Position numbers and translations under genes: made by a program. Positions 1 through 13,613 of a DNA stretch of 13,877 nucleotides are shown piece after piece (the stretch's first letter is position 1; each line of letters opens with the position of its first letter). Under the pieces are notes generated by a model that worked only from the letters and a program-made list of their open reading frames with translations, ran no database searches and was not told the origin of the DNA. Source of the DNA: Oscillospiraceae bacterium (GTDB lineage: Bacteria; Bacillota; Clostridia; Oscillospirales; Ruminococcaceae); the NCBI GenBank assembly GCA_016303195.1, contig JAEDMD010000027.1:1-13877 (forward strand), in the 5' to 3' direction.

Positions 1-32
1 AGGGGACGCCCTGCACGAGAGGGCGTCCCCTT
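1..32. repeat. Perfect hairpin, GGGGACGCCC type
   Basis: A 12-base arm (AGGGGACGCCCT) is followed by a 7-base spacer and its exact reverse complement at the window edge. There is no long T-run directly after it, so it could be a terminator for a gene left of the window or a dispersed palindromic repeat. The core GGCGTCCCC recurs at about 13768-13776. Confidence 0.6.
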
Positions 33-60
33 AATAAAATATGACTTTTTTGACAAGCTG

Positions 61-83
61 AAAGACCGCCTTTGGCGGTCTTT
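61..83. terminator. Hairpin terminator after the metallophosphoesterase gene
   Basis: AAAGACCGCC, a TTT loop, then GGCGGTCTTT make a perfect 10-bp stem that begins 12 bases beyond the stop codon of the minus-strand metallophosphoesterase gene. The A/T ends of the stem give a short U-tract in either direction, so it may end transcription from both sides. Confidence 0.7.
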
Positions 84-94
84 GTAAATATTTC

Positions 95-1216
95 TCACTG
101 ATCTGCATTTATGTGATTTACTTCCATGATGACATATTCGCTTTTTGCGCCTGTCTTGAATGGGATAGCCCAGCCTGAAATGCCTGATGTTACGATAAAG
201 CCTGTGCCGTTATATTCCTCAGCGCCGTAAAATGCATCGTTGGCACGGAGAAGCAGTCCGATATAGCCCGCAGGCCAGATGTGACCGCCGTGAGTGTGTC
301 CCGAAAATACAAGGTCGATATTCGCTTCTGATTCATTTTTGTAATCGTTAGGCTGATGGTCAAGAACGATGGTATATTTTGATTCGTCAAGCCTGTTCAT
401 CAGTTCGGAAATCTCCATTCTGCTTTCGTCGGACTTGTCTTTTCTGCCAACGATGTAGAAGCTGTCATTGACCAGTACAGCCTCATCTTTGAGAACGGTG
501 ATATTGTTCTTTTTCAGTTCGGAAATAAGTTCGGCATATGTAAAATCACGTCCGCTCTGATAATAGCCTTTGTCATGGTTGCCGTCGATGTAATATACAC
601 CATAGGTGGACTTCATTTCGCCAAGTGCCTGACAAGCTCTTAACATATCCTCACGGCATGAGTCATCGTCAACGAAATCGCCTGCAAGCACAACTATATC
701 AGGATCTTCTGCTTCCATTTTCTTCACCTCAGCGGCAAATTCCTCGCCGTCGAGGGTGATTCCGAGGTGAGAATCGGCGAATCCGCAAATGCGTATCTTA
801 TCCGCACCGATGTCTTTTGCAGTTTGCAGGTCGTACTGAGTGCGGTAGACGGTGTGAGCAAAGTGCCAGCCTGACAGCAGGTAGAAGAAAGTTGAGGCGA
901 TTGCGAGAACTCCCTCTATATTGCGCTTTCGCTCCTCCTTGTAGCTTCTTCTGAGGTGACCGATGATGATGTCGAAAATTATCCAGAAGAATATCAGGTG
1001 CAGGATGATGACCATAGCCGACCACACGTTTATCAGCAGGGCAGACAGTGCGAAAACGGCAATAACAGGAATTACCGAAACTGCCCATGACAGGGCTTTT
1101 TTCTTTTCAGCCAGTTTTTCGATGAAAGAGAATCGGTGAAAACGGGTGACGAGATAGAATCCGCCGCCCAGCGAAGCCAGTACCACAACGGCGAACAGTA
1201 TTAACCAGAAAGACAT
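95..1216 (-). CDS. Membrane-anchored calcineurin-like metallophosphoesterase
   Basis: 373 residues. The first ~125 residues hold about four hydrophobic segments (near 3-23, 43-63, 66-87 and 102-122), so the protein sits in the membrane. The catalytic domain follows with the full metallophosphoesterase signature: D148-x-H150, G179-D180-x2-D183, G212-N-H-D215, H286 and G306-H-T-H-G-G. These residues bind two metal ions and hydrolyse a phosphoester. The layout resembles the YkuE/YaeI branch, whose substrates are often lipid-linked or cyclic phosphates; the substrate here cannot be read from sequence. The start is supported by GTGAGG about 8 bases upstream and by a consensus promoter (1242-1270). 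It appears to be a single-gene transcript ending at the 61-83 hairpin. Confidence 0.9.
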   Translation of the reverse strand: MSFWLILFAVVVLASLGGGFYLVTRFHRFSFIEKLAEKKKALSWAVSVIPVIAVFALSALLINVWSAMVIILHLIFFWIIFDIIIGHLRRSYKEERKRNIEGVLAIASTFFYLLSGWHFAHTVYRTQYDLQTAKDIGADKIRICGFADSHLGITLDGEEFAAEVKKMEAEDPDIVVLAGDFVDDDSCREDMLRACQALGEMKSTYGVYYIDGNHDKGYYQSGRDFTYAELISELKKNNITVLKDEAVLVNDSFYIVGRKDKSDESRMEISELMNRLDESKYTIVLDHQPNDYKNESEANIDLVFSGHTHGGHIWPAGYIGLLLRANDAFYGAEEYNGTGFIVTSGISGWAIPFKTGAKSEYVIMEVNHINADQ

Positions 1217-1241
1217 AGAATTACCTCACGTTTTTTCTTCT

Positions 1242-1270
1242 ATTATACCCTTTTTGGCGCTTTCTGTCAA
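1242..1270 (-). promoter_or_regulatory. Sigma-70 promoter of the metallophosphoesterase gene
   Basis: Read on the minus strand, a perfect TTGACA (1265-1270) is followed by exactly 17 bases and a perfect TATAAT (1242-1247). The start of transcription should fall near 1235, leaving a leader of about 20 bases that holds the ribosome binding site. No operator is evident, so expression is probably constitutive. Confidence 0.88.
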
Positions 1271-1290
1271 CCGTCGCTGTTTAATGCTCC

Positions 1291-1555
1291 ACGGCAACAG
1301 CATTTACATTTAAAAAATATAAAAAAGCGCCGCAGGCGCACGTTCTGGGGTCAAGGGTGACTCCCCACAGTGTGGGGAGATGTCAGCGTAGCTGACAGAG
1401 GGGACGGGCTCCCGTTGGGAGATGTTATCTCCCTTGCAGGGGGTGAATGAGGGGGACAGAGTCCCCCTGACAAAGTAGTAAAGCAAGCGCAGCAATGCTT
1501 TACGGACGTTTCACAAGAAATTTGCCTTGCCACAAAAAGTAAATGCTGATGCCGT
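1291..1555. mobile_element. MITE-like repeat with terminal inverted repeats
   Basis: The left end ACGGCAACAGCATTTAC (1291-1307) and right end GTAAATGCTGATGCCGT (1539-1555) are inverted copies differing at one position. Between them lies a string of hairpins: GCGCC/GGCGC (1327-1339), CTCCCCACA/TGTGGGGAG, TGTCAGC/GCTGACA, GGGAGA/TCTCCC, AGGGGGAC/GTCCCCCT and GTAAAGCA/TGCTTTAC. Short open frames inside have no ribosome binding site and no coding character. The left end may start slightly earlier, because ATGCTC at 1284-1289 also precedes the other copy (13815). No clear target duplication is visible. It resembles the non-autonomous dispersed repeats of gut Clostridia; no transposase is nearby. 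Confidence 0.7.
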
Positions 1556-1576
1556 ATATTCTCGATTCATTAATAG

Positions 1577-1954
1577 TTATGTGAGGCTTAGTGCCAGATA
1601 CAGAATTATCTCGGTGATTATCGGGAATACCAGATATGTTACCTGAGTGTGAGAGCTGTATTTTTCGATGTCTCTGCCTTTTTCATTGGCAAGATATAGT
1701 ATCATAGCCAATATAAGCGCTGTTATTGCACGTAATGCGAAAAATACCACAACAGGATTCAGGAATACTATGAACATCAGAAAGCCTCTCGCCATGCCTT
1801 CCAAAAGTGATACACAAGTTCCGAAAAATCCGTCTCCCGATCTGTCAGGCGGTGCTGATGCGGAATATAATATTACTGCTGAGGAAAAGTAAACAGCCAG
1901 ATATATGAAGCCGTGCCATGCCTTTTTGCTTATCCAGTCCCATAATTCAGTCAT
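1577..1954 (-). CDS. Small membrane protein, unknown function
   Basis: 125 residues from the chosen ATG at 1954, which has AAAGGGTGA about 6 bases upstream; a longer frame beginning at 2002 would run into the preceding gene and has no such site. Hydrophobic segments lie near residues 15-32, 48-85 (one or two helices) and 104-123, with a charged loop (near 88-98) before the last. I do not recognise a family. It follows the 110-residue membrane gene by only 16 bases, so the two are very likely co-transcribed and may act together. The nearest boundary on its 3' side is the 1291-1555 repeat, whose right-hand end lies about 20 bases away. Confidence 0.7.
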   Translation of the reverse strand: MTELWDWISKKAWHGFIYLAVYFSSAVILYSASAPPDRSGDGFFGTCVSLLEGMARGFLMFIVFLNPVVVFFALRAITALILAMILYLANEKGRDIEKYSSHTQVTYLVFPIITEIILYLALSLT

Positions 1955-1970
1955 TCCGCTCACCCTTTCT

Positions 1971-2303
1971 TTATTGATATGAATGTTTGATGGAGTATAC
2001 AATATCCGTTATTTCAATGGCGGCTGATATCACAATAGCCACAAGCGATACAGGAAATGTGCCCAGTGCATATATAACTCCCAGAGGCAATGCCAGTATC
2101 ATGAACAAGTCAATCAGGAAAATGCCTGAATGAAGCCCTGTAATAAGTACCAGTGAGAAGCCGAGGAAGAAGATAAGGAGTATTATCTCTATGATCTTTG
2201 ATATGATTTTCAGTGTTTTCAGCCATTGCGGTCTTTCATATGTCGCAGGCTTTCTGTATTTACAGAAGAATTTATTCAACATCTCGGATAATGTCTCTTT
2301 CAT
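1971..2303 (-). CDS. Small membrane protein, unknown function
   Basis: 110 residues. A basic, hydrophilic N-terminus of about 28 residues (including KFFCKYRKP) is followed by long hydrophobic stretches near 33-60 and 62-102, probably three helices. The ATG is preceded by a good AAAGGAG about 9 bases upstream. It is the first gene of a two-gene minus-strand unit and is divergent from the phage-type block. I recognise no family. Its size and topology would also fit a holin or immunity-type membrane protein, but nothing specific supports that. Confidence 0.72.
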   Translation of the reverse strand: MKETLSEMLNKFFCKYRKPATYERPQWLKTLKIISKIIEIILLIFFLGFSLVLITGLHSGIFLIDLFMILALPLGVIYALGTFPVSLVAIVISAAIEITDIVYSIKHSYQ

Positions 2304-2364
2304 AATATCAGCTCCTTTGTGATGTGTTTTTATTGTAACTATATTCTATCATGTCAGCTTTGAA

Positions 2365-2399
2365 ATTATAAGATGTGTACTGTCACTATCTGAGTGACA
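2365..2399 (-). promoter_or_regulatory. Possible promoter and operator of the membrane-protein pair
   Basis: On the minus strand a TATAAT (2365-2370) lies about 60 bases upstream of the 110-residue gene. There is no good -35 box. Instead a perfect inverted repeat, TGTCACT-5 bases-AGTGACA (2381-2399), covers the -35 region. This is the pattern of a regulator-dependent promoter, but it is an inference from two short motifs. Confidence 0.35.
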
Positions 2400-2630
2400 A
2401 ATGTAATGCGTGAAGGAATTGAGAATGTAGGGGAGTATTCCGTGAGCCCTTTTTTGTGTTATTGTATGTTTTGTGCATAAGCAAAACAAATCACTTGTTG
2501 CATTTGTGCATTTATACAAAGTGAAAATTATTTTTTCCAATATTCAACGGGTTTGCGTTGAAAATATGTCCTTTTCCGCCCCCTTATGAACGGACGCTGA
2601 AAAAGCCGTTCGGAAAGGAGGTTTTTTATT
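2400..2630. other. Intergenic leader of the phage-type block
   Basis: No credible gene. It holds inverted repeats TGTTTTG/CAAAACA (2467-2488), TTCAACG/CGTTGAA (2543-2562) and GAACGG/CCGTTC (2588-2611). The last sits just before the ribosome binding site AAAGGAGG (2614-2621) of the terminase small-subunit gene and could sequester or present it. I found no convincing plus-strand sigma-70 promoter; TATACA at 2513-2518 has no matching -35 box. Confidence 0.45.
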
Positions 2631-3137
2631 ATGTCTGACAGAGCAAACAAAGCCCGACGGGATGCGTTCTGCTGTTGGTATGTGATGCTCGGCAATGCCG
2701 CCGAAGCTGCCGAAAAAGCAGGTTTCCCGAAAGAGAATGCACTAAGCGAGGCTGTGAAATGTCTCAGGTCGCAGGAATGTCGCAAGACCATCTCGTCTCT
2801 GAGGGAACTTCTCTCGGACAGCGGTAATGTTGCCGCAGGTCTGAAAAGGCTTGCTTTCGGAAAATGCACCGATGCTGTGTATCTGGTGTTCGCCGATGAA
2901 CTGCCGCCGCCTTCGGTCATTGAGGGACTTGACCTGTTCAATGTTTCCGAGATAAAACGTGTCAAGGGCGGCGGTGTTGAAGTCAAGCTGTTCGACAGGC
3001 TGAAGGCACTGGAAAAGCTGTTCGAGCTGGAAAATTCCTGTTCTGACCATGACAAAGCCGCTGACCTTATAAGGGCGCTGACAGAGAATACGGTTGAGGA
3101 GGGAGAATGTGATGAGGATAAGCAGTCTTTCAGCTAA
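2631..3137 (+). CDS. Phage terminase small subunit
   Basis: 168 residues. In tailed phages this protein recognises viral DNA and regulates the large subunit during packaging. The N-terminal region (about 10-37) reads like the usual TerS helix-turn-helix, with the pattern of an alanine-rich helix followed by K-A-G-F (AAEAAEKAGF). The C-terminal stretch KLFDRLKALEKL (about 120-131) matches the oligomerisation helix typical of Firmicutes TerS. Length fits the family. The start has AAAGGAGG 9 bases upstream. Its 3' end overlaps the terminase large-subunit gene by 26 bases, so the two are translationally coupled. Family assignment is from pattern, not a search. Confidence 0.82.
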   Translation: MSDRANKARRDAFCCWYVMLGNAAEAAEKAGFPKENALSEAVKCLRSQECRKTISSLRELLSDSGNVAAGLKRLAFGKCTDAVYLVFADELPPPSVIEGLDLFNVSEIKRVKGGGVEVKLFDRLKALEKLFELENSCSDHDKAADLIRALTENTVEEGECDEDKQSFS

Positions 3138-4359
3138 ACAAAAGCTGACAATGAACTGGTGGAGCGATACGCATTACAAGGATCATGACGCTATCATATG
3201 TGACGGCGCTGTAAGAAGCGGCAAAACTCTTTCAATGTCGCTGGGATTCGTGCTGTGGGCTTCATACAGCTTCAACGGCGGCTCGTTTGCCATATGCGGC
3301 AAGACTGTCACTTCTCTCCGCAGAAATGTCATTACTCCGCTTCTTCCGATCCTCAGAAGCTACGGTTTCATCTGCATTGAAAAGGTCAGCAGAAGCTATA
3401 TTGACCTGACCTTTCTCGGCAACACAAACCGCTTTTATCTTTTCGGCGGTAAGGATGAGGGTTCGGCTTCGCTGATACAGGGAATGACTCTTTCGGGAGT
3501 ATTCCTCGATGAAGCGGCGCTCATGCCTCGTTCATTCGTTGAGCAGGCACTTGCAAGATGTTCTGTCAGCGGCTCGAAAATGTGGTTCAACTGCAATCCC
3601 GACAATCCTGCTCACTGGTTCTACAATGAGTGGATAAAGAAGGCGAAAGAGAAACACGCTCTTTATGTTCACTTCACAATGGACGATAACCCTTCGCTGT
3701 CGGAATCGCTGAAAGAACGTTACAAAAGGCTGTATTCGGGAACATTCTATGAGCGCTTCGTGCTTGGAAAATGGACTGCTTCACAAGGCGTCGTCTATCC
3801 CATGTTCAGCGAGAAAAAGCACGTTTACAGCGGAGATGTGCAGTGCGAAAAATACGTCATATCCTGTGACTACGGCACTGTTAATCCATCCTCATTCGGC
3901 TTGTGGGGACTGAGTAACGGAGTGTGGTACAGACTTAAAGAGTACTACTATTCTTCAAAGCGAGAGGGTATTTCACGTACAGACGAGGAGCATTACACCG
4001 CTCTTGAACAACTGGCAGGTGACAGGGATATCTCAAAGATAATCGTTGACCCGTCTGCCGCCAGCTTTATAGAGTGTATCCGCAGGCACGGAAGATTCAG
4101 AGTGGTAAAGGCTGAAAATGATGTTATTTCGGGAATAAGAAACGTGAGTACCGCCCTCGGCGAGAACAGGCTCAGATTCCATGAGTCATGCAGGGACATC
4201 ATTCGTGAGTTCCATCTTTACAGCTGGAACGAAAAATCAGGCACGGACGTTCCCATAAAGGAGAATGACCATGCTATGGATGATATGCGCTACTTTGTGG
4301 CGGATATCATGAAGGACAGGGGAGAGGATGAATTCTTCGCCCTGTCGGTATCAAGATGA
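3112..4359 (+). CDS. Phage terminase large subunit (packaging ATPase-nuclease)
   Basis: 415 residues from the ATG at 3112, preceded by GGAGGGAG; an in-frame TTG at 3094 lies before that site and is unlikely. The ATPase domain shows Walker A GAVRSGKT (32-39), Walker B VFLDEAA (about 130-136) and the conserved WFNCNPDNPAHWF (158-170). The RNase H-like nuclease domain keeps its acidic residues: D253 (SCDYGT), D313 (IIVDPS) and D390/D391 (NDHAMDD). It is of the Terminase_3/PBSX-like type that powers DNA into a procapsid and cuts it. All key residues are intact, so it should be active if expressed. Translation is coupled to TerS upstream and the portal gene downstream. Confidence 0.95.
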   Translation: MRISSLSAKQKLTMNWWSDTHYKDHDAIICDGAVRSGKTLSMSLGFVLWASYSFNGGSFAICGKTVTSLRRNVITPLLPILRSYGFICIEKVSRSYIDLTFLGNTNRFYLFGGKDEGSASLIQGMTLSGVFLDEAALMPRSFVEQALARCSVSGSKMWFNCNPDNPAHWFYNEWIKKAKEKHALYVHFTMDDNPSLSESLKERYKRLYSGTFYERFVLGKWTASQGVVYPMFSEKKHVYSGDVQCEKYVISCDYGTVNPSSFGLWGLSNGVWYRLKEYYYSSKREGISRTDEEHYTALEQLAGDRDISKIIVDPSAASFIECIRRHGRFRVVKAENDVISGIRNVSTALGENRLRFHESCRDIIREFHLYSWNEKSGTDVPIKENDHAMDDMRYFVADIMKDRGEDEFFALSVSR

Positions 4360-4373
4360 AAGGAGGTCAGAAT

Positions 4374-5513
4374 TTGCTATTCGGAAAAAAGAAAAAGGAA
4401 ACTGCCGTAACTCCTCAGCTTGTGTCTGCTCAGCGCTCTCCGACGGGGAATATGGTTCTTCCTGCGGCTGTTGAGCCTTATGAAAAGGAACTGTATGACA
4501 GGCTCAGAGCCGCTGTTCCCATCATTGATGCGGCTATCATGAAGATAATCCGTCTTACAGGCGGTTTCAGAGTGATATGCTCCGATGAGACGTATCAGGA
4601 CAGTCTTGACAGCTTCCTTGAAAATGTTCCTGTCGGGATATCGGGATGCTCTGTCGGTACTTTCGTGGACAATTTCCTTGACAGTATGCTCACTTACGGA
4701 AGCGCCGCAGGCGAGATAGCATCAGACCCCGACAGTCGGCGTATCGCAGGACTGTGGATAGGCGATATCTCAAAGATACGCATTTCCGTCGGTAAAGACC
4801 CGTTTGCAAGACGGTATGATATGATACTTCCCGATGGCAGTGTAAGGGCTGTTGAGCATCCCGAAAATATTCTTTATGCATCGCTGACAGGAGGGAAGTC
4901 GCTTCTTCGGGGACTGCCTGCGCTTAGCAGTATCCTGCTGAGGATATATGAATGTATCGGTCAGAATTTTGACAGAGCAGGAAATGTCAGGTATGCGGTG
5001 ACTTATAAGCCCTCAGGCGATCAGGGGGATATGGTCTATACCCGTGAAAGAGCAAAGCAGATAGCCCGTGAATGGGCGGACGGTATGAATTCCGCTAAGT
5101 ACGGACAGGTAAAGGACTTTGTTGCAGTCGGAGATGTTGACATAAAGGTCATAGGTGCTGATAATCAGCTTTTCGATACAAATGTACCTGTGCGTCAGCT
5201 TCTTGAACAGCTTGTGGCAAAGCTGTCTATACCGCCTTTCCTGCTCGGTCTGAGCTGGAGCAGTACGGAGAGAATGTCCGCTCAGCAGGCGGATATCCTC
5301 ACTTCGGAGCTGGAATATTACCGCAGACTGCTCACACCTGTTATCTGCGAAATAGGCAATTCCTACCTTTGCTCTGTGGGCAGTGAGGCTGTGTGCAGAG
5401 TGGAATGGGATAACATCAATTTACAGGACGAATCAGCTCTTGCAGATGCAAGACTGAAAAATGCTCAGGCTCTTGAAATAGAGCTTAGAAATCAAAGATC
5501 AATAACTGAATAA
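4374..5513 (+). CDS. Phage portal protein
   Basis: 379 residues from the TTG at 4374. A frame-opening ATG at 4356 exists, but a perfect AAAGGAGGT (4359-4367) lies inside that extension, 6 bases before the TTG, so the TTG is the better start. Portal proteins form the dodecameric ring at one head vertex through which DNA passes. Supporting features are the position straight after terminase, the length, and the C-terminal half: FDTNVPVRQLLEQLVAKLSI, then PPFLLGLSW and STERMSAQQAD (about 270-310), which is characteristic of SPP1/PBSX-type portals. The family call is confident, though the residues that contact DNA cannot be picked out by eye. Confidence 0.9.
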   Translation: MLFGKKKKETAVTPQLVSAQRSPTGNMVLPAAVEPYEKELYDRLRAAVPIIDAAIMKIIRLTGGFRVICSDETYQDSLDSFLENVPVGISGCSVGTFVDNFLDSMLTYGSAAGEIASDPDSRRIAGLWIGDISKIRISVGKDPFARRYDMILPDGSVRAVEHPENILYASLTGGKSLLRGLPALSSILLRIYECIGQNFDRAGNVRYAVTYKPSGDQGDMVYTRERAKQIAREWADGMNSAKYGQVKDFVAVGDVDIKVIGADNQLFDTNVPVRQLLEQLVAKLSIPPFLLGLSWSSTERMSAQQADILTSELEYYRRLLTPVICEIGNSYLCSVGSEAVCRVEWDNINLQDESALADARLKNAQALEIELRNQRSITE

Positions 5514-5526
5514 CGGAGGTAAATCT

Positions 5527-6486
5527 ATGTATAACGATATCAGACTTGAAAAAGGTATGTACGATCTCAGCGGTAAGTCTTTCACTGCTGCTCTTGAGGA
5601 GCTTGACCCATCTTCTGCATATGCAGGAACTCCCCTTGAAAAGCTGGATGCTTTCGAGAGACAGCTCAAGCGCTTCAATATCCGTGTAAGCGGTCAGGAC
5701 TGCGACCGTGTTGAGAAGTTCTTCTCATCAACCGAGAGTGCGGTGCTGTTCCCTGAATTCGTCACAAGAAGTATCAGAAAGGGCTTCGATGATATGGTTC
5801 TTTCAACTGTATGCGCCGCCAAGACTGTGAACTATTCAAGCCAGTATCTCGGCTGTGTCCTTGACGATACCGCAAACTATTCGCCGTCAGATCAGGCTGA
5901 CACACTCCCGACAGCGACCGTGACCGAGGCTTCAACTCCCGTTACTCTCGCAAAGTACGGCAGACTTATCAATGCTTCATATGAGGCTGTACGTCAGCAG
6001 AGACTTGATGTGTTCGGTGTAATGCTCAGAAGTATTGGTGTAAAGCTGGCTGTTGCAGTTATCAAAAACGCTTTCTCTGTACTGAAAACAGGTGCAGTTC
6101 CTATCACATCGCCTGAGCTTACTTATGCAAAGCTGGCTGAACTCTACGGCGCTTTCGACAGTTTCGACATGACAACTGTTATCGCTCCGCCTGCACTTGC
6201 CGCAAAGATAGCCGCAATGGAGCAGGTTGCGGAAAGCTGTACAATGACCGAGGGCAGAATGATACTCCCGTTCGGTGCGGAGCTTATCAAGACTGCCGCC
6301 GCTGACGAGAATACCATTATCGGTATCGACCGCAGATTCGCTCTTGAATTCATTACAAGTACCGATCTTGTGATGGAGACGGATAAGCTCATTTCCTGTC
6401 AGCTCGATCAGATCACCGTTTCGATCACCTGCGGTTTCAGAAAGATAACTCCCGATGCGGTAAAGGTGCTTACTATCGGAAGCTGA
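5527..6486 (+). CDS. Phage major capsid protein, HK97-fold type
   Basis: 319 residues, start supported by GGAGGT 6 bases upstream and only 13 bases after the portal gene. The N-terminal ~70 residues are charged and helical (for example LEKLDAFERQLKRF), like a scaffolding delta-domain. Next comes the strand-rich core beginning near VLFPEFVTRSIRKG, a segment found in many HK97-fold capsids. Further core features are the T-V-T-E-A-S-T-P-V motif (about 134-142), the A-domain stretch with APPALAAKIAAM (about 219-230), and a C-terminal strand set with FRKITPDAVKVL. No separate scaffold gene is present, consistent with a built-in scaffold cut off by the downstream protease-like protein. I place it by position and pattern. 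Confidence 0.85.
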   Translation: MYNDIRLEKGMYDLSGKSFTAALEELDPSSAYAGTPLEKLDAFERQLKRFNIRVSGQDCDRVEKFFSSTESAVLFPEFVTRSIRKGFDDMVLSTVCAAKTVNYSSQYLGCVLDDTANYSPSDQADTLPTATVTEASTPVTLAKYGRLINASYEAVRQQRLDVFGVMLRSIGVKLAVAVIKNAFSVLKTGAVPITSPELTYAKLAELYGAFDSFDMTTVIAPPALAAKIAAMEQVAESCTMTEGRMILPFGAELIKTAAADENTIIGIDRRFALEFITSTDLVMETDKLISCQLDQITVSITCGFRKITPDAVKVLTIGS

Positions 6487-6505
6487 TTTTATAGTGATTA
6501 TTTTT

Positions 6506-6574
6506 AGCCGTTAGCTGTTAGCCATTAGCTGTTAGCCGTCGGGCGCACGATAGCTAATGGCTCACGGCTTTTAT
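6506..6574 (+). terminator. Long hairpin made of TTAGC repeats, terminator-like
   Basis: Three related units (AGCCGTTAGCT, AGCCATTAGCT, AGCCGT) are followed by the complementary AGCTAATGGCT (6552-6562) and ACGGCT (6564-6569), then TTTTAT. The inner arms 6520-6530 and 6552-6562 pair perfectly for 11 bp; AGCCGT (6506-6511) pairs with the outer arm. It lies between the capsid and protease-like genes, so it may partially stop transcription after the capsid gene, or protect the capsid message from 3' decay. Confidence 0.55.
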
Positions 6575-6604
6575 CAACTGCTTACTCAAAAAGGAGGTAA
6601 GAAA

Positions 6605-7429
6605 ATGACAAAGGAAATACTCGAACAGATAAACCGATTCACCCGCAGACCTTTGACTGAGGATGAGGTATACACATTCTCGGTCATCCTCTGCGATAAC
6701 GATATCGACCGTGATATGGAGCGTTTTTCCGATGATGCTCTCGAAACTCTGAAAAACAGCTTCATCGGCAGAACAGGGATATCCGACCATAATGCCGCTG
6801 CCGCAAATCAGAATGCACGTATCTTCGATGCCGAGGTAGTATCGGACAGCGAAAGGACTACCGTTGACGGCCGACCTTACAAATTCCTTAAAGGCAAGGC
6901 TTACATGGTACGCACCGATGACAACAAAAACCTCATTGCCGAGATAGACGGCGGAATTAAAAAGGAAGTCAGCATTTCCTGTTCGGCGGCTAAGAGGATA
7001 TGTTCCGTTTGCGGCTGTGAACGCAGTTCAGGCGGATGCGCTCATGAAAAGGGCAGAAGCTATAACGGAAAGCTGTGTCATACCATTCTTGACGATATCA
7101 CCGATGCCTATGAATGGAGCTTTGTTGCTGTTCCTGCTCAGGTAAATGCAGGTGTCACAAAGCGATTCACCGAGGGCGAAAGAGTTTACAGCAATGCTGT
7201 AAGGGAAATGAATGATGCCGATGACGGGATGCGCCGTGATATCCGCAGACTTGCGTTCTTTGCAGGCGGCAGGGATATGGCGGATATGGCTTCGCTTTCG
7301 GCTAAGAATATGAACACCGAACAGCTTGTCAGCTATAAGCGTTCACTTGAAGAACGCTGTAAGGGAGGTGTGCGTTTACAGCTTGCACCCGATGAAAAGT
7401 CTGACAGTGTTGACGGATTTATCATGTGA
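6605..7429 (+). CDS. Prohead-protease-like protein with Cys/His cluster
   Basis: 274 residues from the ATG at 6605, preceded by AAAGGAGGT; a longer frame from 6557 overlaps the hairpin and is rejected. The first ~125 residues follow the phage prohead serine protease plan: a strand with VILCDNDIDRD, a His in SDHNA (H62) and a Ser in KKEVSIS (S123), the likely catalytic pair. After the Ser comes a cluster C133-x2-C136-x-C138, C145-x-H147 and C158-H159, which may bind zinc. Then comes DAYEWSFVAVPAQ (about 167-179), a segment seen in this family in Firmicutes phages. Its role would be capsid maturation by trimming the capsid N-terminus. Placement after, not before, the capsid gene is unusual. Confidence 0.72.
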   Translation: MTKEILEQINRFTRRPLTEDEVYTFSVILCDNDIDRDMERFSDDALETLKNSFIGRTGISDHNAAAANQNARIFDAEVVSDSERTTVDGRPYKFLKGKAYMVRTDDNKNLIAEIDGGIKKEVSISCSAAKRICSVCGCERSSGGCAHEKGRSYNGKLCHTILDDITDAYEWSFVAVPAQVNAGVTKRFTEGERVYSNAVREMNDADDGMRRDIRRLAFFAGGRDMADMASLSAKNMNTEQLVSYKRSLEERCKGGVRLQLAPDEKSDSVDGFIM

Positions 7430-7442
7430 AAGGAGGATATCT

Positions 7443-7823
7443 ATGGAGATGCGAACTGTAAAACTGCTGTTCCGCTTGTTTTCCGGTGTCGATACCGAGA
7501 CTGAAACGGAATATGTCCCCATTGTGGAAATGGCAGTTACGGAGGTCGAAAAAATGTTAAAGGAGGGTGCTGACAGGAGTGATATTCGCCTTTGCTATAT
7601 CAGTGCCGCTCTTGCAAATTATCGTTACCGACAGATAATCTGCGGTCAGGACAGGACGGAAGTGACATATGCAGGAAAAATGTCACGTGCCGAGCATGAT
7701 ATTTCCCTTGAATATGCGGAAAAGATGTTCAGGGACTATGTTCATCTCTGCGAGGATATCATTGTTTCATCCGATTTCGTTTTCATGGCATTCGGTACGG
7801 AGGGAGGATGCGGAAATGCTTAA
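7443..7823 (+). CDS. Putative phage head-tail connector protein
   Basis: 126 residues from the ATG at 7443, which has AAAGGAGG 6 bases upstream and lies 13 bases after the previous stop; a longer frame from 7326 lies inside the preceding gene. The protein is mostly helical, beginning with a short hydrophobic strand and an acidic segment. It then has VEMAVTEVEKMLKEG and a Tyr-rich helix (YISAALANYRYRQI), the look of small head-completion (gp6/gp15-like) proteins that sit under the portal. There is no diagnostic motif; the call rests on size, helical content and position between head and tail-like genes. Confidence 0.5.
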   Translation: MEMRTVKLLFRLFSGVDTETETEYVPIVEMAVTEVEKMLKEGADRSDIRLCYISAALANYRYRQIICGQDRTEVTYAGKMSRAEHDISLEYAEKMFRDYVHLCEDIIVSSDFVFMAFGTEGGCGNA

Positions 7824-8223
7824 AATTGTTATAAACAGGATCATCGAGGTGCTTGAACAGGCAGGAAATGAAAATGTTTACAGTGCATTCGATGCTTATT
7901 CCATTGATAAAAAGGGAAGTCTTTTCACAGTTGTCAGTGTGGGTGCGTTTGAAACTTCAGCGCCTATCTATTCCATGTATTACGCTTATCTTCCGTTCAA
8001 GGCGGAAGCTGAACAGAATGTGACTGCGGCAAAGAGTATGTCAATGGCTGAACTTTATGATTATTATGAAACATTTGTCGAGCCTGCGCTTGTGAAGCTG
8101 ACTGATATCAACTGCTCGCTGAAAAAGGTCGCTATGAAGTATGACAGCAACATTCAGCGGCTTGTGCTGACAGTGAAGATAGATGTCAGCGGTATCAACA
8201 GGATAGAAAGGGGAAACGAATGA
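7816..8223 (+). CDS. Putative phage neck or tail-terminator-type protein
   Basis: 135 residues from the ATG at 7816; AGGGAGGA is 7 bases upstream. It overlaps the previous gene by 8 bases and the next by 4 (ATGA), so translation is coupled on both sides. A helical N-terminus (INRIIEVLEQAG) is followed by alternating strands with many Tyr and Phe and a C-terminal strand ending VLTVKIDVSGI. Size, position and the helix-then-sheet plan suit a tail-terminator or stopper protein, but I do not recognise the family. Confidence 0.45.
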   Translation: MLKIVINRIIEVLEQAGNENVYSAFDAYSIDKKGSLFTVVSVGAFETSAPIYSMYYAYLPFKAEAEQNVTAAKSMSMAELYDYYETFVEPALVKLTDINCSLKKVAMKYDSNIQRLVLTVKIDVSGINRIERGNE

Positions 8224-8609
8224 GTTCTTCTGCTGTTATTTCCCGAAATGAAGCCTATCCCGTTACTGTCGGGTATTGTACGCTGTTCTGTGACCGATTC
8301 AAGGCTTCGGCTGTAAAGGTCATTAATGAGGAAACTACCGTCAACAGCGGAAGTATCTTCACATCGTCGGGACTTCGTGCGCTCAGGCTTGAACTTTCGG
8401 GACGTATTTATAATGAAAATTCGCCTCTTGATCTTTTGTTCCGTCTTAGCAATGAGATACAGGGGCAGACGTTCACTATCGAGTATAAGGGACTTATATT
8501 CAGCGATTGCGTGATGCAGAAATATGAAGTCACCGACAGCGGAAAAGGCTGGACAGAAGGCAGTTTCACTCTGCTGACGCACAGCGCTGTAAGGGAGGTA
8601 ACACCATGA
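8220..8609 (+). CDS. Putative small phage tail-like protein
   Basis: 129 residues, overlapping its neighbours by 4 bases on each side. A purine-rich GAAAGGGG site lies in the end of the preceding gene. The sequence is strand-rich: TVGYCTLFCDRF near the start, a Gly/Ser-rich turn (about 40-50), then LRLELSGRIY, a short helix PLDLLFRLSNEI (about 69-80), QGQTFTIEYKGLIF, and a C-terminal strand ending SFTLLT. This pattern fits a small beta-barrel tail or hub-adaptor protein. It is too short for most major tube proteins. Function is inferred from context only. Confidence 0.42.
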   Translation: MSSSAVISRNEAYPVTVGYCTLFCDRFKASAVKVINEETTVNSGSIFTSSGLRALRLELSGRIYNENSPLDLLFRLSNEIQGQTFTIEYKGLIFSDCVMQKYEVTDSGKGWTEGSFTLLTHSAVREVTP

Positions 8610-9532
8610 GTGTGAGCCTGATATTTGTAAACAAGGATATGACTACCGCTGTAAAAGCCGATATCCTTTCATTTTCTTTCCGCAAGGATGCATATCTTCC
8701 ATATACGAAGCTGAGTGTGTCATTTGTGACGAACGGAGAGGATATTGACGAGTATGCGGAAATGAAGCTGTTTATTGGTGAAAAGCTCATTCATCACGGT
8801 TATATCGAGACTCTTGAACGCAGAAAAAGCGGTGGGAAATATACAATGTTCGCTGTTTCAAACGGCTTCACCGCACAGCTTTGCAGAGCGCAGATAGAGC
8901 CGGGACTGAAAATGTCTGTATCCCTTAACAGCCTTATGGACGGCTTCTATACACTGCCTTATGTCGAACATGAGAATAATTCCGACACAAGCAATTATAT
9001 CTACGTCAGGAAAAATACCGCAATGTGGGATGCAGTGGCTTCTCTTTCATATAAGCTGTGCGGAACATATCCCTATGTCAGGGGAGCGAATACTGTGAGG
9101 ATAACGGCATTTCCCGAACCTGTCTCATATGTTTACAGCGAGGGAGAATGTACCGAAACAGGTATCGGAAGCGATCACCGCCGATTGAATACAAATTACC
9201 ACATGGCGGATATCAACGGCGAATACGGACATTATGACCTTACGGACAGCGATGCGGCGGCATACAGGCTGGTGAGACATATCTACATGGATCTTGATAT
9301 GCGTTTTCTGTATTCTCCTCAGCAGGCATTGGAATACCGTGACAAACTGGACAACAGGGGAATGAGGAAAAGATACTGCGTATACAGCGGTTACAGAGGC
9401 GAGGATATTTCGGACATTATGACAATCGGGAGCGATCAGCCTGCAAGGATAATGTTCATAGAAATAAAGGGCAGTTCAAAGGGGATTTTTACTAAAGTCG
9501 GAACATATGAGGACAAGTTTCAGGGCAGTTGA
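8606..9532 (+). CDS. Phage baseplate-hub-like protein (GpD/XkdQ type)
   Basis: 308 residues, preceded by GGGAGG and overlapping the upstream gene by 4 bases. The N-terminal half is beta-rich with the plan of the gp27/late-control-D hub: two barrels with segments such as KLSVSFV, KLFIGEKLIHHGYIETLERR (about 53-72) and YTMFAVSNGF. A central stretch NTAMWDAVASLSYKL (about 136-150) and a following TVRITAFPEP match the XkdQ-like arrangement of PBSX-type tails. Hubs normally cap the tail tube and support the spike. It is a little shorter than common XkdQ proteins but shows no obvious break. It is the last phage-type gene; no tape measure or fibre gene is present. Confidence 0.62.
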   Translation: MSVSLIFVNKDMTTAVKADILSFSFRKDAYLPYTKLSVSFVTNGEDIDEYAEMKLFIGEKLIHHGYIETLERRKSGGKYTMFAVSNGFTAQLCRAQIEPGLKMSVSLNSLMDGFYTLPYVEHENNSDTSNYIYVRKNTAMWDAVASLSYKLCGTYPYVRGANTVRITAFPEPVSYVYSEGECTETGIGSDHRRLNTNYHMADINGEYGHYDLTDSDAAAYRLVRHIYMDLDMRFLYSPQQALEYRDKLDNRGMRKRYCVYSGYRGEDISDIMTIGSDQPARIMFIEIKGSSKGIFTKVGTYEDKFQGS

Positions 9533-9565
9533 GTGGGGAATATACTGATACAGGAGGAAATATAT

Positions 9566-9796
9566 ATGTATCAGAGATCACTCAGCACTCTTGCGGAAGG
9601 CGAAAAAGCAAGGGTGAGAACAATAGAGACAGGCGGAAGTATAAGCGGCAGGCTTCGTGCATTGGGGCTGATAGAAGGACGGGAGGTCAAATGTCTCCAC
9701 AGAAGCAAATGTGGAAGTATTGCCGCATATTTTATCTGCGGTGCAGTTATAGCGATCCGCCGTGAAGATGCGGAACGTGTCGGATTGGAAATATAG
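9566..9796 (+). CDS. FeoA-domain protein
   Basis: 76 residues from the ATG at 9566, with AGGAGG 7 bases upstream; a GTG at 9533 lies before that site and is not needed. The whole protein is one FeoA (SH3-like barrel) domain: LAEGEKARV at the start, GRLRALGLIEGREVKCL (about 28-44), and CGSIAAYFICGAVIAIRRED (about 49-68). FeoA normally assists the ferrous iron transporter FeoB at the inner membrane, but no feoB is present here. It sits 33 bases after the hub gene on the same strand, with a terminator right after it, so it is probably read from the phage-type block unless a promoter is hidden in that gene. Confidence 0.85.
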   Translation: MYQRSLSTLAEGEKARVRTIETGGSISGRLRALGLIEGREVKCLHRSKCGSIAAYFICGAVIAIRREDAERVGLEI

Positions 9797-9806
9797 GAAA
9801 GCAAAC

Positions 9807-9847
9807 AAAAACTCCCACATGACCAAAAATCATGTGGGAGTTTTTTT
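9807..9847. terminator. Bidirectional rho-independent terminator between feoA-like gene and recR
   Basis: ACTCCCACATGA (9811-9822) and TCATGTGGGAGT (9830-9841) form a perfect 12-bp stem with a CCAAAAA loop, extended by AAAA/TTTT. Seven Ts (9841-9847) follow on the plus strand and a T-rich tract on the minus strand. It ends the plus-strand block and the minus-strand recR operon; its last bases overlap the recR stop codon. Confidence 0.95.
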
Positions 9848-10448
9848 ACATAGAATTTCTGTTTTCAAGCGCTTTGTAGAGCGTTACCTCGTCGGCATAT
9901 TCAAGTATTCCGCCGACAGGAAGTCCGAATGCAAGTCTCGTGACCTTTATGCCCATAGGTTTCAGCAGTCCTGCCACATACATAGCAGTTGCATCACCTT
10001 CAACAGTAGGGTTGGTAGCCATTATGACTTCATTCACTCCGCCCTGTGCGATTCTCGCAAGCAGTTCCTTTATTCGGAGCTTGTCGGGAGTTATGCCGTC
10101 CATTGGTGACAGCAGTCCGTGAAGCACATGGTAGACACCGCTGTATTCCCTTGTTCTCTCAAAAGCTGTAACATCTTTCGGAGTTTCGACAACGCATATG
10201 ACGCCGTGGTCACGGTCATTGTCGGAGCAGATGGGGCACAGATCTCTTTCGGTGAGATTCTGACAGCATTTACAGCAGTGGACATTCTTTTTCGCATCCA
10301 CAAGTGCCTTTGCAAAAGCCTCCACGGAAGCCTCGTCCATCGACATTACATGATAAGCAAGCCGCTGGGCGGATTTCATGCCTATTCCGGGGAGGGATGC
10401 AAACTTTTCCGCCAGTATCACCAGCGGCAAAGCATTATGGTCAGCCAT
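9846..10448 (-). CDS. recR: Recombination mediator protein RecR
   Basis: 200 residues, the usual RecR length. With RecO (and RecF) it helps load RecA onto SSB-coated single-stranded DNA at gaps and stalled forks. Visible domains are a helix-hairpin-helix (LPGIGMKSAQRLAYH, about 19-33), a zinc finger C59-x2-C62-x8-C71-x2-C74, and a Toprim domain starting at VICVVETPKDV (about 83-93) with VLHGLLSPMDGI. Two additional cysteines (C58, C61) flank the finger. The ATG overlaps the ybaB stop codon by one base (TAATG), so the pair is coupled. It is the last gene of the dnaX operon. Confidence 0.98.
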   Translation of the reverse strand: MADHNALPLVILAEKFASLPGIGMKSAQRLAYHVMSMDEASVEAFAKALVDAKKNVHCCKCCQNLTERDLCPICSDNDRDHGVICVVETPKDVTAFERTREYSGVYHVLHGLLSPMDGITPDKLRIKELLARIAQGGVNEVIMATNPTVEGDATAMYVAGLLKPMGIKVTRLAFGLPVGGILEYADEVTLYKALENRNSM

Positions 10449-10798
10449 TAAAACAGTCCTGGGAGAGATACACCGCCTGTGATCTTGCCCATTTCGTTTT
10501 CGGTAGTAGCTTCGATATTGTTAACAGCCTCGTTGATAGCGCTGATGATGAGATCCTGAAGCATCTCAACGTCCTCAGGGTCAACAGCCTCAGGCTTGAT
10601 GTTGAGGGTCTTGATAGTCTTCTTACCTGTGAGAACAACTTCAACTGCGCCGCCGCCTGCTGTTGCAGAGAACTCTCTTGCTTCGATGTCTTCCTGAAGC
10701 TCAGTGATCTGATCCTGCATCTTCTGAGCCTGCTTTATCATCTGGTTCATGTTCTGAGCGCCGCCGCCGCCGATATTTCTTGGTATTCTTGCTTTCAT
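10448..10798 (-). CDS. ybaB: Nucleoid-associated protein, YbaB/EbfC family
   Basis: 116 residues from the ATG at 10798, which has AAAGGAGA 7 bases upstream; an upstream in-frame ATG at 10822 precedes that site and is rejected. Family features are a Gly-rich start (NIGGGGAQNMNQM), a coiled-coil helix (IKQAQKMQDQITELQEDIE, about 22-40), the beta segment ATAGGGAVEVVLTGK, and PEDVEMLQDLIISAINEA (about 73-90). The protein forms dimers that bind DNA and help shape the nucleoid. The dnaX-ybaB-recR order is the classic conserved arrangement. Confidence 0.96.
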   Translation of the reverse strand: MKARIPRNIGGGGAQNMNQMIKQAQKMQDQITELQEDIEAREFSATAGGGAVEVVLTGKKTIKTLNIKPEAVDPEDVEMLQDLIISAINEAVNNIEATTENEMGKITGGVSLPGLF

Positions 10799-10836
10799 TT
10801 TAAATTCTCCTTTAATAATCAAAATAATTATATATC

Positions 10837-10855
10837 AAGCAAATATTATTTGCTT
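10837..10855. repeat. AT-rich inverted repeat between dnaX and ybaB
   Basis: AAGCAAATA and TATTTGCTT are perfect 9-base arms around a single base, in the 73-base gap between dnaX and ybaB. The minus-strand transcript would form a weak AT hairpin without a proper U-tract. It could be a minor attenuator, a processing site or a regulator site; nothing decides this. Confidence 0.35.
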
Positions 10856-10871
10856 TTTAACATTGTATATA

Positions 10872-12497
10872 TCATATCTGAGGAGTGCTGTTGTCAACAG
10901 CGACCTCGATGTTGCTCTTGATAGCCTTCTGCACAAGCTGTTCAGCCATGCTTTTCTGCTGGTCTACGGTAGTAGCGCATCTCGCCTTGATGATGTACCG
11001 CTGACCGAGGACACGGTTTATAGTGCTTCCGAGAGAAACTGCATTTTCTCTGACCTTGAAAAGGGTGATGAAAAAGCGGTTCTGGGAAGTGATGAATATG
11101 ATATTTCCTGCCGTAGCCGCAATCGAACCGTCAAGGCTTCCTGCGACAGCGGGGTTGACCTGTTTGAATTCCTCCAGAACTTCGGGCCATCTTTCGCATG
11201 GGATGAGATCGGAGGGCTTGAGATTTTTGATATCCACAGTTGGAACAGGGTCAGACTCGGTCTGCGGAGCATTTGCCGTAAGCACCTCAGGCGGTTTCTG
11301 AGCCTGCTGAGGAGCGTTATTCTGCATCTGCAACGGAGCATTTCTGAGCTTGTCCTCCAACTGTTTTATTTTATCATAAATTTCGGAATTGTCAATAGCT
11401 TCGGTATTATTCCTGATATTGCCGCACAGCTTTATAAGTGCCATTTCAAACTCCACACGGCGGTTCATAGCCCTGTTCATGTTCTCACTGCATTCCTGTA
11501 ATACCGAAATATGGGACATGACTGTGTCAAGCTGAGTTTTATCCGCAAGTTCACGGAGTTTCTGCATTTCATCCGCAACGCATACGATAAGGCTTTCAGC
11601 GGTATCGGGTGAAACTTTTATCAGCATGATATTTCTGAGCTGAACGATAAGTTCTTCGCAGAGTCGGCTGATATCCTTTGACATATCGTAGAGGGAAGCG
11701 GTGATGGACAGAGCCTTTGCGGTATCGCCGCTGTCGATGGCTTCGAGCAGACCGAAAAGGTATTCCTTTCCTGCGATGCCTGCCGCCGCTGAAACTACAT
11801 TTTCGTCGATCACCTCGTCGCCGACCGAGCATCTGTCAAGGAGCGAAACAGCGTCACGCATACCGCCGTCAGCGAGTTTTGCTATCATAGCCGCACCGCC
11901 GTCGGTGAGACTCAATTGTTCCTGTTCAGCGATGAATTTCAGCCTTGAAGCGATATCCTCTGGCTTTATGCGTCGGAAGTCGAATCTCTGACAGCGTGAG
12001 AGGATGGTCGCAGGAACTTTGTGTATCTCAGTGGTAGCGAGGATGAATTTTATATACGGAGGCGGTTCTTCCATGATCTTCAGCAGGGCATTGAAAGCGC
12101 CTGCGGAGAGCATATGCACCTCGTCGATGATATAGATTTTGTATTGTCCACGGTCGGGAGTGTAGACTGCGGCATCACGCAGATCACGGATATTATCAAC
12201 ACCGTTGTTTGAAGCAGCATCTATTTCGACGATATCGGTGAGAGCGCCGCTGTCGGCATCACGGCATATGTCACATTCAAGGCATGGGTTGCCGTCTTTC
12301 ATATTGCGGCAGTTTACAGCCTTAGCGAGGATACGGGCGCAGGTAGTTTTACCTGTGCCACGGGAGCCTGTAAAAAGGTATGCATGGGCAGTTTTTCCGC
12401 TCATTATCTGATTTTTCAGCGTATCCGTAGTCTGCTGCTGCGAGATAACGTCATCGAAGGTCATAGGTCTCCATTTGCGGTAAAGAGCCTTGTACAT
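10872..12497 (-). CDS. dnaX: DNA polymerase III subunit gamma/tau
   Basis: 541 residues. It is the ATPase of the clamp loader, which opens the beta sliding clamp and ties the replisome together. The AAA+ module shows Walker A GSRGTGKT (44-51), zinc-binding cysteines C63, C72, C75 and C78, Walker B IIDEVHM (about 123-129), sensor LATTE (about 153-157) and the arginine finger SRC (167-169). Domain III and a Gln/Pro-rich linker (about 385-415) lead to a C-terminal tau-like domain. I saw no obvious A6G slippery site for making gamma by frameshift. The start has AAAGGAGTGA 6 bases upstream. It lies 17 bases after the TPR gene in the same operon. Confidence 0.97.
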   Translation of the reverse strand: MYKALYRKWRPMTFDDVISQQQTTDTLKNQIMSGKTAHAYLFTGSRGTGKTTCARILAKAVNCRNMKDGNPCLECDICRDADSGALTDIVEIDAASNNGVDNIRDLRDAAVYTPDRGQYKIYIIDEVHMLSAGAFNALLKIMEEPPPYIKFILATTEIHKVPATILSRCQRFDFRRIKPEDIASRLKFIAEQEQLSLTDGGAAMIAKLADGGMRDAVSLLDRCSVGDEVIDENVVSAAAGIAGKEYLFGLLEAIDSGDTAKALSITASLYDMSKDISRLCEELIVQLRNIMLIKVSPDTAESLIVCVADEMQKLRELADKTQLDTVMSHISVLQECSENMNRAMNRRVEFEMALIKLCGNIRNNTEAIDNSEIYDKIKQLEDKLRNAPLQMQNNAPQQAQKPPEVLTANAPQTESDPVPTVDIKNLKPSDLIPCERWPEVLEEFKQVNPAVAGSLDGSIAATAGNIIFITSQNRFFITLFKVRENAVSLGSTINRVLGQRYIIKARCATTVDQQKSMAEQLVQKAIKSNIEVAVDNSTPQI

Positions 12498-12514
12498 ACT
12501 TTCACTCCTTTAAA

Positions 12515-13417
12515 TTATTGCTTTTCCTTATTATGCGCTTCAAGGAGAACAGCCGCCTGAATTTCCTTATAGTAGACTGTGTAGCCGTTGGGGTCATCGA
12601 TATTATTGAGGAGAGCCATGCGGTACATTTCCTCGCCCTTGTCGAAATGACGCAGGAGAGTATGGGCGATAGCAGCGCCGCCGAGGGCATTTGCATAGGA
12701 TTCACGGCGGTCGATGGCTTCATTGAACCATTTCAGCGCAGTTTTTCCGTCATTGAGCTTGATGTACATTCTTCCAATCTCCACACGCATATGGTCGCTG
12801 TATTTCTGGTCTGAATCCATCAGCGAAGTGAACATTTCCAGAGCCTTTGTTGTGTTGCCTGTTTTTGCATAGCAGCGAGCGAGGAAAATGGGCAGTTCGG
12901 GAATGTTGAATCCGAATTTCTCGGCATTTTCGTAGCAGTTGACCGCATTCGGATTCCAGTCCATGAAGTCGTAACAGCGACCCTTGTAGAAGCTGAGAAC
13001 ACCCTGTTCTTCGGGAGTTTTGCTGAAATCGTCGCCGTCTATCTGAGCAAAAACTTCAAGTGCATCGCCGAAATAGCGCTGGTGGAACATTTCCATGCCT
13101 ACCTCGAAAAGAGAGGATTTGCGGTTCATCCCTGTGAAGGCATTGCCGATGATATCCTCATCATATCGGTGAAAGACTGAGCCTGCATATTTCAGCGACT
13201 CAAAAACGCACAGACTGCACCATGAGCCTACGAAAAACATAGCCATCCACAGGATAAGCGACTTGAAACCGATGCTGTCGGCATTTGAGAATATAGCCAT
13301 AGCCGCAGTGAGGACGACAGTCAGCAGAGCGGTGGCGGCGAGAGCCTTGACGAGTACCTTTTTGAAGCAAAGGAGTACTCTTTTTGTACGTGTGAGAAGA
13401 ATAGTTAAAAAAAGCAT
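12515..13417 (-). CDS. Membrane-anchored tetratricopeptide-repeat protein
   Basis: 300 residues from the ATG at 13417, with AGGAGAG about 9 bases upstream. A longer open frame to 13555 would read straight through the SRP RNA gene and is an artefact. The N-terminus has a basic segment and two hydrophobic helices (about 24-43 and 52-71). A soluble part follows with several TPR units from about 95 to 285, for example MFHQRYFGDALEVFAQID, FLARCYAKTGNTTKALEMF, IKLNDGKTALKWFNEAID and LLRHFDKGEEMYRMALL. TPRs mediate protein contacts; no enzyme domain is visible. It is co-transcribed with SRP RNA and dnaX, but its partner is unknown. Confidence 0.82.
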   Translation of the reverse strand: MLFLTILLTRTKRVLLCFKKVLVKALAATALLTVVLTAAMAIFSNADSIGFKSLILWMAMFFVGSWCSLCVFESLKYAGSVFHRYDEDIIGNAFTGMNRKSSLFEVGMEMFHQRYFGDALEVFAQIDGDDFSKTPEEQGVLSFYKGRCYDFMDWNPNAVNCYENAEKFGFNIPELPIFLARCYAKTGNTTKALEMFTSLMDSDQKYSDHMRVEIGRMYIKLNDGKTALKWFNEAIDRRESYANALGGAAIAHTLLRHFDKGEEMYRMALLNNIDDPNGYTVYYKEIQAAVLLEAHNKEKQ

Positions 13418-13442
13418 AGGTCGATCTCTCCTAAAAGAAAAA

Positions 13443-13568: not shown

Positions 13569-13613
13569 TTTTCATTGAAAGTCCTGATTGAGCAGACATA
13601 CGCTCTATATGAC

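Follow-up and report, generated by a model that had tools for sequence, protein, structure and literature searches.

Gene transfer agent (GTA)-like packaging has been reported in Ruminococcaceae, of 8.4–8.9 kb in Faecalibacterium and of 4.6 kb in Ruminococcus callidus (PMC12946183). The account of R. callidus in that paper describes no gene cluster, and its discussion counts few GTAs as known outside the Alphaproteobacteria; it was the only relevant source in our literature search for a Ruminococcus GTA or domesticated block. R. callidus belongs to one clade with R. champanellensis and R. flavefaciens (PMC5359413). Here we describe a block of nine phage-type genes (terS, terL, portal, mcp, and g5–g9) on contig JAEDMD010000027.1 of an Oscillospiraceae bacterium (assembly GCA_016303195.1, Ruminococcaceae), of which positions 1–13,877 were analyzed ("the window"). 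We read the block as an operon that probably encodes the head and a minimal tail of a domesticated, GTA-like packager with a PBSX-family terminase (probability ∼0.7).

The GTA of Faecalibacterium (FpGTA) comes from a Gram-positive gut relative and, like the block, lacks replication genes. As described in PMC12946183, its ten-gene operon comprises TerS, TerL, portal, scaffold, capsid, and small genes, comparable with the nine genes here, and a second operon with baseplate, fiber, and lysis genes lies ∼125 kb away in one strain. FpGTA particles are described there as having no visible tails. The window portal and TerL were both unmatched in two genomes with an F. prausnitzii 16S primer site (G178 and G243), and phrog_2 matches were weak and fell within large frames. 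A third such genome (G094), which may be mixed, carries TerL at 61% and a portal fragment. Indirectly, the result for G178 and G243 leans toward an FpGTA terminase that differs from that of the block.

PBSX of Bacillus subtilis, which packages random 13-kb host fragments and acts in a bacteriocin-like manner (PMC7667829), shares the TerL family TIGR01547 with the block. In contrast to PBSX, genes for a sheath, Baseplate_J, a tape measure, lysis, and a repressor are all absent from the window form; a contractile tail together with lysis genes in the same cluster, a PBSX trait, is not found in the window, and in some block relatives lysis and fiber-like genes are located elsewhere. The GTA of Rhodobacter capsulatus (RcGTA) is encoded by dispersed loci and vertically inherited, features in which the system proposed here would resemble it, in addition to a fold match of g8. 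Its tail gene content is unlike that of the block.

Conservation, selection, and descent of the block

All nine genes lie consecutively on the plus strand between positions 2631 and 9532 with every frame open, as an initial annotation of the sequence had noted. Adjacent genes overlap or sit at most 13 bases apart, in line with its claim of overlaps or spacings below 15 bases, with the sole exception of a 118-base gap between mcp and g5 (6487–6604). As to its claim of a strong ribosome binding site before each gene, Shine–Dalgarno-like sequences were seen before the seven genes inspected (terS, terL, and g5–g9). Family scans of 17 window proteins turned up neither an integrase or excisionase gene nor one for a repressor, phage replication, a holin, or a lysin, and no direct repeat links both flanks among the 20 of 26 direct-repeat families inspected, both in agreement with that annotation. 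A tRNA search of the window found none, and the traits of a capsid-forming chromosomal island (own integrase, attachment sites) were not found within it. These mobility-gene negatives cover the window; the flanks of relatives were examined by open reading frame (ORF) clustering. Structural and packaging genes that lie in a chromosome without replication or integration genes, as seen in the window scans, are a trait of GTAs.

A portal search of a genome collection (84,980 species) returned 176 relatives, of which the best 80 loci were kept (72 titled Ruminococcus, including R. flavefaciens FD-1, Y1, and YL228). The block genes keep their order in these 80 loci and are present in 75 (terS), 77 (terL), 80 (portal), 79 (mcp), 78 (g5), 77 (g6), 74 (g7), 73 (g8), and 76 (g9) of them, where contig ends explain many of the misses. 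Because the block is conserved in 80 species-level loci, a chance origin is excluded. By a strict rule (an open frame with a common start and no less than 85% of the length seen in the window), all nine genes are intact in 59 of the 80 loci and in 57 of the 64 with enough contig. Seven loci remain of these 64. The terS frames of four (L013, L029, L041, and L045) are open and have no common start codon at the expected place, where ATT starts are possible; terS is shortened in L070, mcp contains an assembly gap in L046, and g7 and g8 are not recognizable in L080.

The portal is single in all eight genomes searched in whole. At the family level it was matched in 126 of 297 genomes and is single in 125 of these (five rows with one internal stop; G015 has two partial portal pieces, and G094, G255, and G292 give partial matches only). 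At the order level, 70 of 394 genomes carry one portal each (four with an internal stop); 11 of these 70 genomes belong to the family set as well. Searches for a long phage bearing the block found none: 42 contigs from IMG/VR span only 2.6–15.5 kb, and 50,697 phage records gave six matches, none above 47% identity.

Rates of substitution (Nei–Gojobori, pairs with dS of 0.15–1.2; 59 to 378 pairs per gene) give median dN/dS values of 0.12 for terS, 0.10 for terL, 0.11 for portal, 0.14 for mcp, 0.12 for g5, 0.17 for g6, 0.24 for g7, 0.27 for g8, and 0.14 for g9, with 0.83 as the highest value of any single pair. The distances of five block proteins track those of DnaX (r = 0.69–0.84; Mantel, 0 of 2000; 30–31 Ruminococcus-type genomes), and the block and DnaX trees of 30 taxa have 18 of 27 splits in common, compared with a mean of 0.25 after shuffling. 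Each of the 13 DnaX splits supported at 90 or more is within the 17 of the block tree, and no supported conflict exists. From this agreement of trees and distances, it follows that the block descended with the chromosome. The block is under purifying selection and is inherited vertically in Ruminococcus, two features expected of a GTA across a clade.

Its chromosomal place varies, in that recR lies beside it in the window and in FD-1 and other genes do elsewhere. The expectation that relatives carry the block next to recR was not borne out within the DNA examined: only one of 80 does (L003, FD-1), where the block is on the same side of recR as in the window and inverted, which suggests a local inversion. 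A tie of the block to recR was therefore rejected. Flanking families recur in at most 22 loci each, except for a FeoA gene found in 33 (ORF clustering).

The single copy, the vertical descent under selection, and a window free of mobility genes together make it very likely that the block encodes a domesticated particle, which the initial annotation had favored over a dying prophage. The signs by which that annotation would have recognized a recent or decaying prophage, namely occurrence in a single strain, dN/dS near 1, and broken copies elsewhere, were not seen: the block is found in scores of species, gene medians are 0.10–0.27, and incomplete copies are rare.

Gene products and the wider family

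Family, fold, or position marks each of the nine genes as phage-type (Table 1). TerL belongs to the PBSX family (TIGR01547, 7e-65; 219.9 bits against a cut-off of 105.05), and its Walker and nuclease motifs, reported intact before, are so: DGAVRSGKT, a D-E pair, SCDYGTVNP, DPSA, and NDHAMDD are each identical in at least 95% of 76 sequences, the window included. The portal is labeled "serine/threonine protein phosphatase" in several NCBI entries (P0002, P0018, and others), which may have concealed the element from annotation searches. In g5, most likely starting at 6605 rather than 6557, one His and one Ser are identical in at least 97% of 78 sequences. For g6 and g7, family searches gave no convincing match. 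With moderate confidence, the modeled fold of g8 resembles a tail tube, and it matches a protein in the RcGTA entry 6tba (4.7e-04). The AlphaFold model of g9 (pLDDT 93.0) is predicted to fold like a baseplate hub, with a Foldseek match to Mu gp44 (1wru, 1.1e-16). The block thus contains the packaging and head genes first assigned to it and, besides these, two proteins with predicted tail-type folds.

Table 1. Features of the block and its surroundings (window coordinates)
Feature	Position	Strand	Basis
Imperfect dyad TTTGTGCA-N-TACAAA	2503..2520		Alignment of 66 upstream regions
Leader, terminates at terS start	2522..2630	+	Covariance model R1, 79.8 bits
49-base shared cis element	2541..2589	+	Ungapped matrix, 58.2 bits
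terS, terminase small subunit, 168 aa	2631..3137	+	PF03592 8e-12
terL, terminase large subunit, 415 aa	3112..4359	+	TIGR01547; PF03237 6e-17; motifs
Portal protein, 385 aa	4356..5513	+	phrog_30703 4e-132
mcp, major capsid protein, 319 aa	5527..6486	+	phrog_3922 5e-60; PF25209 6e-11
g5, probable prohead protease (inferred), 274 aa	6605..7429	+	phrog_16951 1e-88, unknown function
g6, probable head–tail connector (by position), 126 aa	7443..7823	+	In 77/80 loci
g7, probable tail terminator/completion (by position), 135 aa	7816..8223	+	In 74/80 loci
g8, putative tail-tube-like fold, 129 aa	8220..8609	+
g9, putative baseplate hub of Mu gp44/T4 gp27 type, 308 aa	8606..9532	+	AlphaFold and Foldseek
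FeoA-domain gene, membership uncertain	9566..9796 (frame open from 9533)	+	PF04023 8e-13

Among 20 further loci of the wider family, 17 carry genes beyond the portal, and outside the Ruminococcus side the gene order is portal–g5–mcp. In eight loci (L140, L142–L145, L149, L150, and L126), genes resembling those for sheath and tube stand between g6 and g9, and most of these loci have Baseplate_J past the hub. The tail encoded in L142 is of contractile type and includes a LysM tube-cap protein, Baseplate_J, and a sheath-like protein whose PF17482 match (2e-4) is below cut-off; this order of sheath-like, LysM, hub, and Baseplate_J proteins is PBSX-like. The sheath, tube, and Baseplate_J proteins of L142 are unmatched in the window and in L003, L006, L027, L050, L066, L075, L079, and L080, and g8 has no BLASTP match to the LysM protein of L142 (E 0.23). 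All Ruminococcus-side loci tested are of the short form; the tree of long and short forms is midpoint-rooted and says nothing about which form is ancestral. Baseplate_J was found in four of 22 genomes searched (G139, G121, G012, and G059) and not in the other 18; it is absent from 16 of 16 Ruminococcus-like or short-form genomes (among them G027, whose layout was unseen).

In genomes of 0.7–0.9 Mb, three loci (L151, L152, and L154) carry the portal alone in 20 kb, with g5 and mcp together elsewhere in the genome. In a search that covered portal, g5, and mcp, mcp lies apart from the portal in four of six such genomes; in G251 the two are on separate contigs, and G287 gave no mcp match. Separate g5–mcp and portal sites are kept in these very small genomes (L151, L152, L154, and L167–L170), and it is hard to see why the three genes should have survived genome reduction if they had no function.

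An upstream element shared with other operons

The region before terS is conserved and contains a palindrome of the TTCAACGG-N4-CCGTTGAA type and a CCCCCTTATGA box. The block had been described as free of regulatory genes; no repressor was found, but a regulatory-type element lies upstream (2541–2589). For this element, an ungapped matrix of 49 bases was trained on block leaders only (99.9% shuffle level 5.5 bits; 900 shuffles, maximum 13.6). Scores lie above threshold for 63 of the 66 block leaders that served as training set and for none of 889 upstream regions of other frames (∼200 codons or more, 80 loci; highest 0.03), some of which are not real genes. A covariance model (R1) was built from 38 leaders, including that of the window; its structure was set by hand from L005, so that its pairs are not independent evidence. 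In each of 33 genomes, the block leader is the top R1 match as judged from bit score or position; second copies with weaker scores are also found (matches listed to about E 0.004). R1 gives 2–10 matches in 30 of the 33 genomes, and 58, 17, and 16 in G002, G003, and G004, respectively (E up to 10). In one wider-family locus (L156), the element was found by neither R1 nor the matrix.

The Shine–Dalgarno sequence of terS is able to pair with upstream pyrimidines in the leader, whose fold has a z score of −1.2 in the window and of −1.8 to −7.1 across seven relatives; RNAalifold predicted zero pairs on a MAFFT alignment of leaders. Because the stem that masks the Shine–Dalgarno sequence is poorly retained in the second copies shown, the shared part of the element may act as DNA. 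Two candidates were rejected: a known RNA leader (one Rfam match at chance level, E 0.8) and SOS control (an SOS-like box upstream in just 3 of 65 loci). A matrix scan of 6.3 million positions on both strands gave 178 matches above 12 bits; once block leaders and copies found via R1 or C0 (see below) are discounted, the stand-alone matches among those listed are in L074 (22.6), L077 (12.5), and L144 (12.6), in a listing that leaves out L209–L268 and L309–L338.

The first 20 second copies were picked on match length, not content. Thirteen of them precede fiber-like or lysis genes (ten by shared protein families, C0–C1–C3, C4, and C8; two lysis cassettes; one, L271, by eye), four precede mobile-element replication-type genes, and three neither. 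One lysis cassette (G143) consists of a PF05105 holin and a GH25/M15 lysin, the other (G314) of a small phrog_1863 protein and an M23 peptidase. The next 20 copies, partly from a shorter match class, comprise four before fiber-like genes (three by family and L303 by eye), three before mobile-element genes, and 13 without a clear gene. Overall, 17 of 40 copies, in 17 of 33 genomes, precede fiber-like or lysis genes: 13 by shared C families, two lysis cassettes, and two by eye only.

The C0 protein occurs in 57 of 125 genus genomes, with a single match in 48. At 30 C0 loci, R1 matches directly upstream in 28 and the matrix in all 30 (22–53 bits); 18 of the 30 genomes were new to R1, of which 17 have a match. 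Five of these loci (L309–L311, L313, and L328) had previously been found via R1 and are not independent. The C0 operon is probably a fiber operon, separate from the head block.

Primase or replication-type genes, named by eye, follow the element in L270, L304, L305, L308, L280, L286, and L288, as if satellites or prophages tapped the same control. Copies without a clear gene (L290–L300, L306, L307, L273, and L276) may be repeats, binding sites, or sequences close to terminators that resemble the element. Within one genome, the block and second copies are alike beyond shuffling (0 of 5000; own genome at rank 1 in 8 of 20). PF05105 holins, followed as a lead to a second operon, occur in 12 of 16 genomes, but many of these loci were prophages of an ordinary kind that encode tape measures and recombinases; an orphan holin in G143 turned out to carry the element. 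Holin–endolysin pairs without a tape measure or other recognized phage tail genes nearby were also seen in L192, L199, L200, and L201, where a matrix scan found no element.

Weighing the explanations

A dispersed GTA-like system is, judged from the genes, the best reading of the head block and the element-linked operons. In such a system, a common regulator would turn on the head operon, a receptor-binding or fiber operon, and in some genomes a holin–lysin cassette. The capsid would be assembled and then matured by g5, and TerS/TerL would load it with chromosomal DNA. The connectors, the tube-like adaptor g8, and the hub g9 would form a stub in place of sheath, tube, and tape measure, and lysis would free small particles. 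Whether these particles deliver DNA is more doubtful, and we put it at somewhat below even odds. Equally tentative is a wider picture, in which gut Oscillospirales have a gene-transfer system that is inherited vertically across the order. Its Ruminococcus version would be a head without a sheath, fitted with a tube-like adaptor and a hub and perhaps derived by reduction from a form with a contractile tail. At least three chromosomal operons (head, receptor-binding fiber, and lysis) would be co-regulated via the 49-base element, on which satellites draw as well. Such a system would give rise to the 4.6-kb chromosomal DNA particles of R. callidus and move genes among rumen cellulose degraders.

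Several observations weigh against the GTA-like packager and its regulon. The portal was not matched in 171 of the 297 family genomes, and none of the 20 wider-family loci gave a leader match with R1. TerS of the block retains Terminase_2 (match over residues 12–133), and FpGTA TerS is described as having no obvious DNA-binding domain (PMC12946183). The element is not exclusive, as seven of the 40 copies precede mobile-element replication-type genes and 16 no clear gene, and it precedes lysis cassettes in two genomes only. The fiber-like label of the C families has weak grounds: C0 matches phrog_25888, of unknown function; PF06605 is found in 2 of 84 C4 relatives; the members of C1, C3, C4, and C8 tested gave no convincing family match; and C0 and C4 gave zero matches in the phage collection. 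Otherwise, the label draws on sequence motifs. The own-genome likeness is not special to fiber operons, because the own genome ranks first in 3 of 13 fiber or lysis copies (10 of 20,000 shuffles) and in 5 of 7 other copies (0 of 20,000). It fits a trans-acting regulator also used by mobile elements, or shared descent and composition, and alone is not evidence for a GTA regulon.

The element could instead be a repeat or a general regulatory element that marks no single regulon, which would agree with the many R1 matches in G002, G003, and G004 (58, 17, and 16), with the many fetched matches that no gene follows, with the mobile-element genes that bear it, and with an own-genome likeness that is stronger in the other copies than in the fiber and lysis copies. 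We consider this rather unlikely in view of the 30 of 30 C0 upstreams against 0 of 889 control frames and the 2–10 matches in 30 of 33 genomes. Less likely still is a PBSX-like killing or decoy particle, which would package host DNA without delivering it and be selected for killing competitors. The family of TerL, the contractile-type tail of relatives such as L142, and the PBSX precedent itself (PMC7667829) speak for such a particle, but the sheath, tube, and Baseplate_J of L142 are unmatched in the window and eight other close loci, and all 16 Ruminococcus-like or short-form genomes lack Baseplate_J. A capsid retained by the host without a role in moving DNA, for instance for phage interference or as a DNA-filled compartment, is improbable. 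In its favor, nothing here indicates an exit from the cell, and the FeoA-domain neighbor has no evident role in gene transfer; against it, terminase motifs, portal, and tube-like and hub proteins are all under selection, and lysis and fiber-like operons carry the same element. A decaying or recently integrated prophage remnant, finally, would account for phage-type genes throughout and for a block without tape measure, sheath, or lysis genes. The spread over scores of species and the failure to find a long phage carrying the block in IMG/VR or the phage collection make it highly improbable, and a dying prophage was rejected on the grounds of dN/dS far below 1, the DnaX-congruent tree, and the rarity of broken copies.

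The block offers a testable gene set in cultured strains (R. flavefaciens FD-1, Y1, and YL228), and the 49-base element a sequence tag that leads to further operons. Together they provide a way to ask whether gene exchange among rumen and gut fiber degraders runs through such particles.

The nine genes are followed by a tenth plus-strand gene with a FeoA domain, which the earlier count of nine, otherwise confirmed, had left aside. A FeoA-domain gene on the same strand lies within 700 bases after g9 in 38 of 68 loci with room, and in L157 too. The one long gap of the operon, between mcp and g5, contains short TTAGCTGTTAGCC-type repeats at positions 6510–6567.

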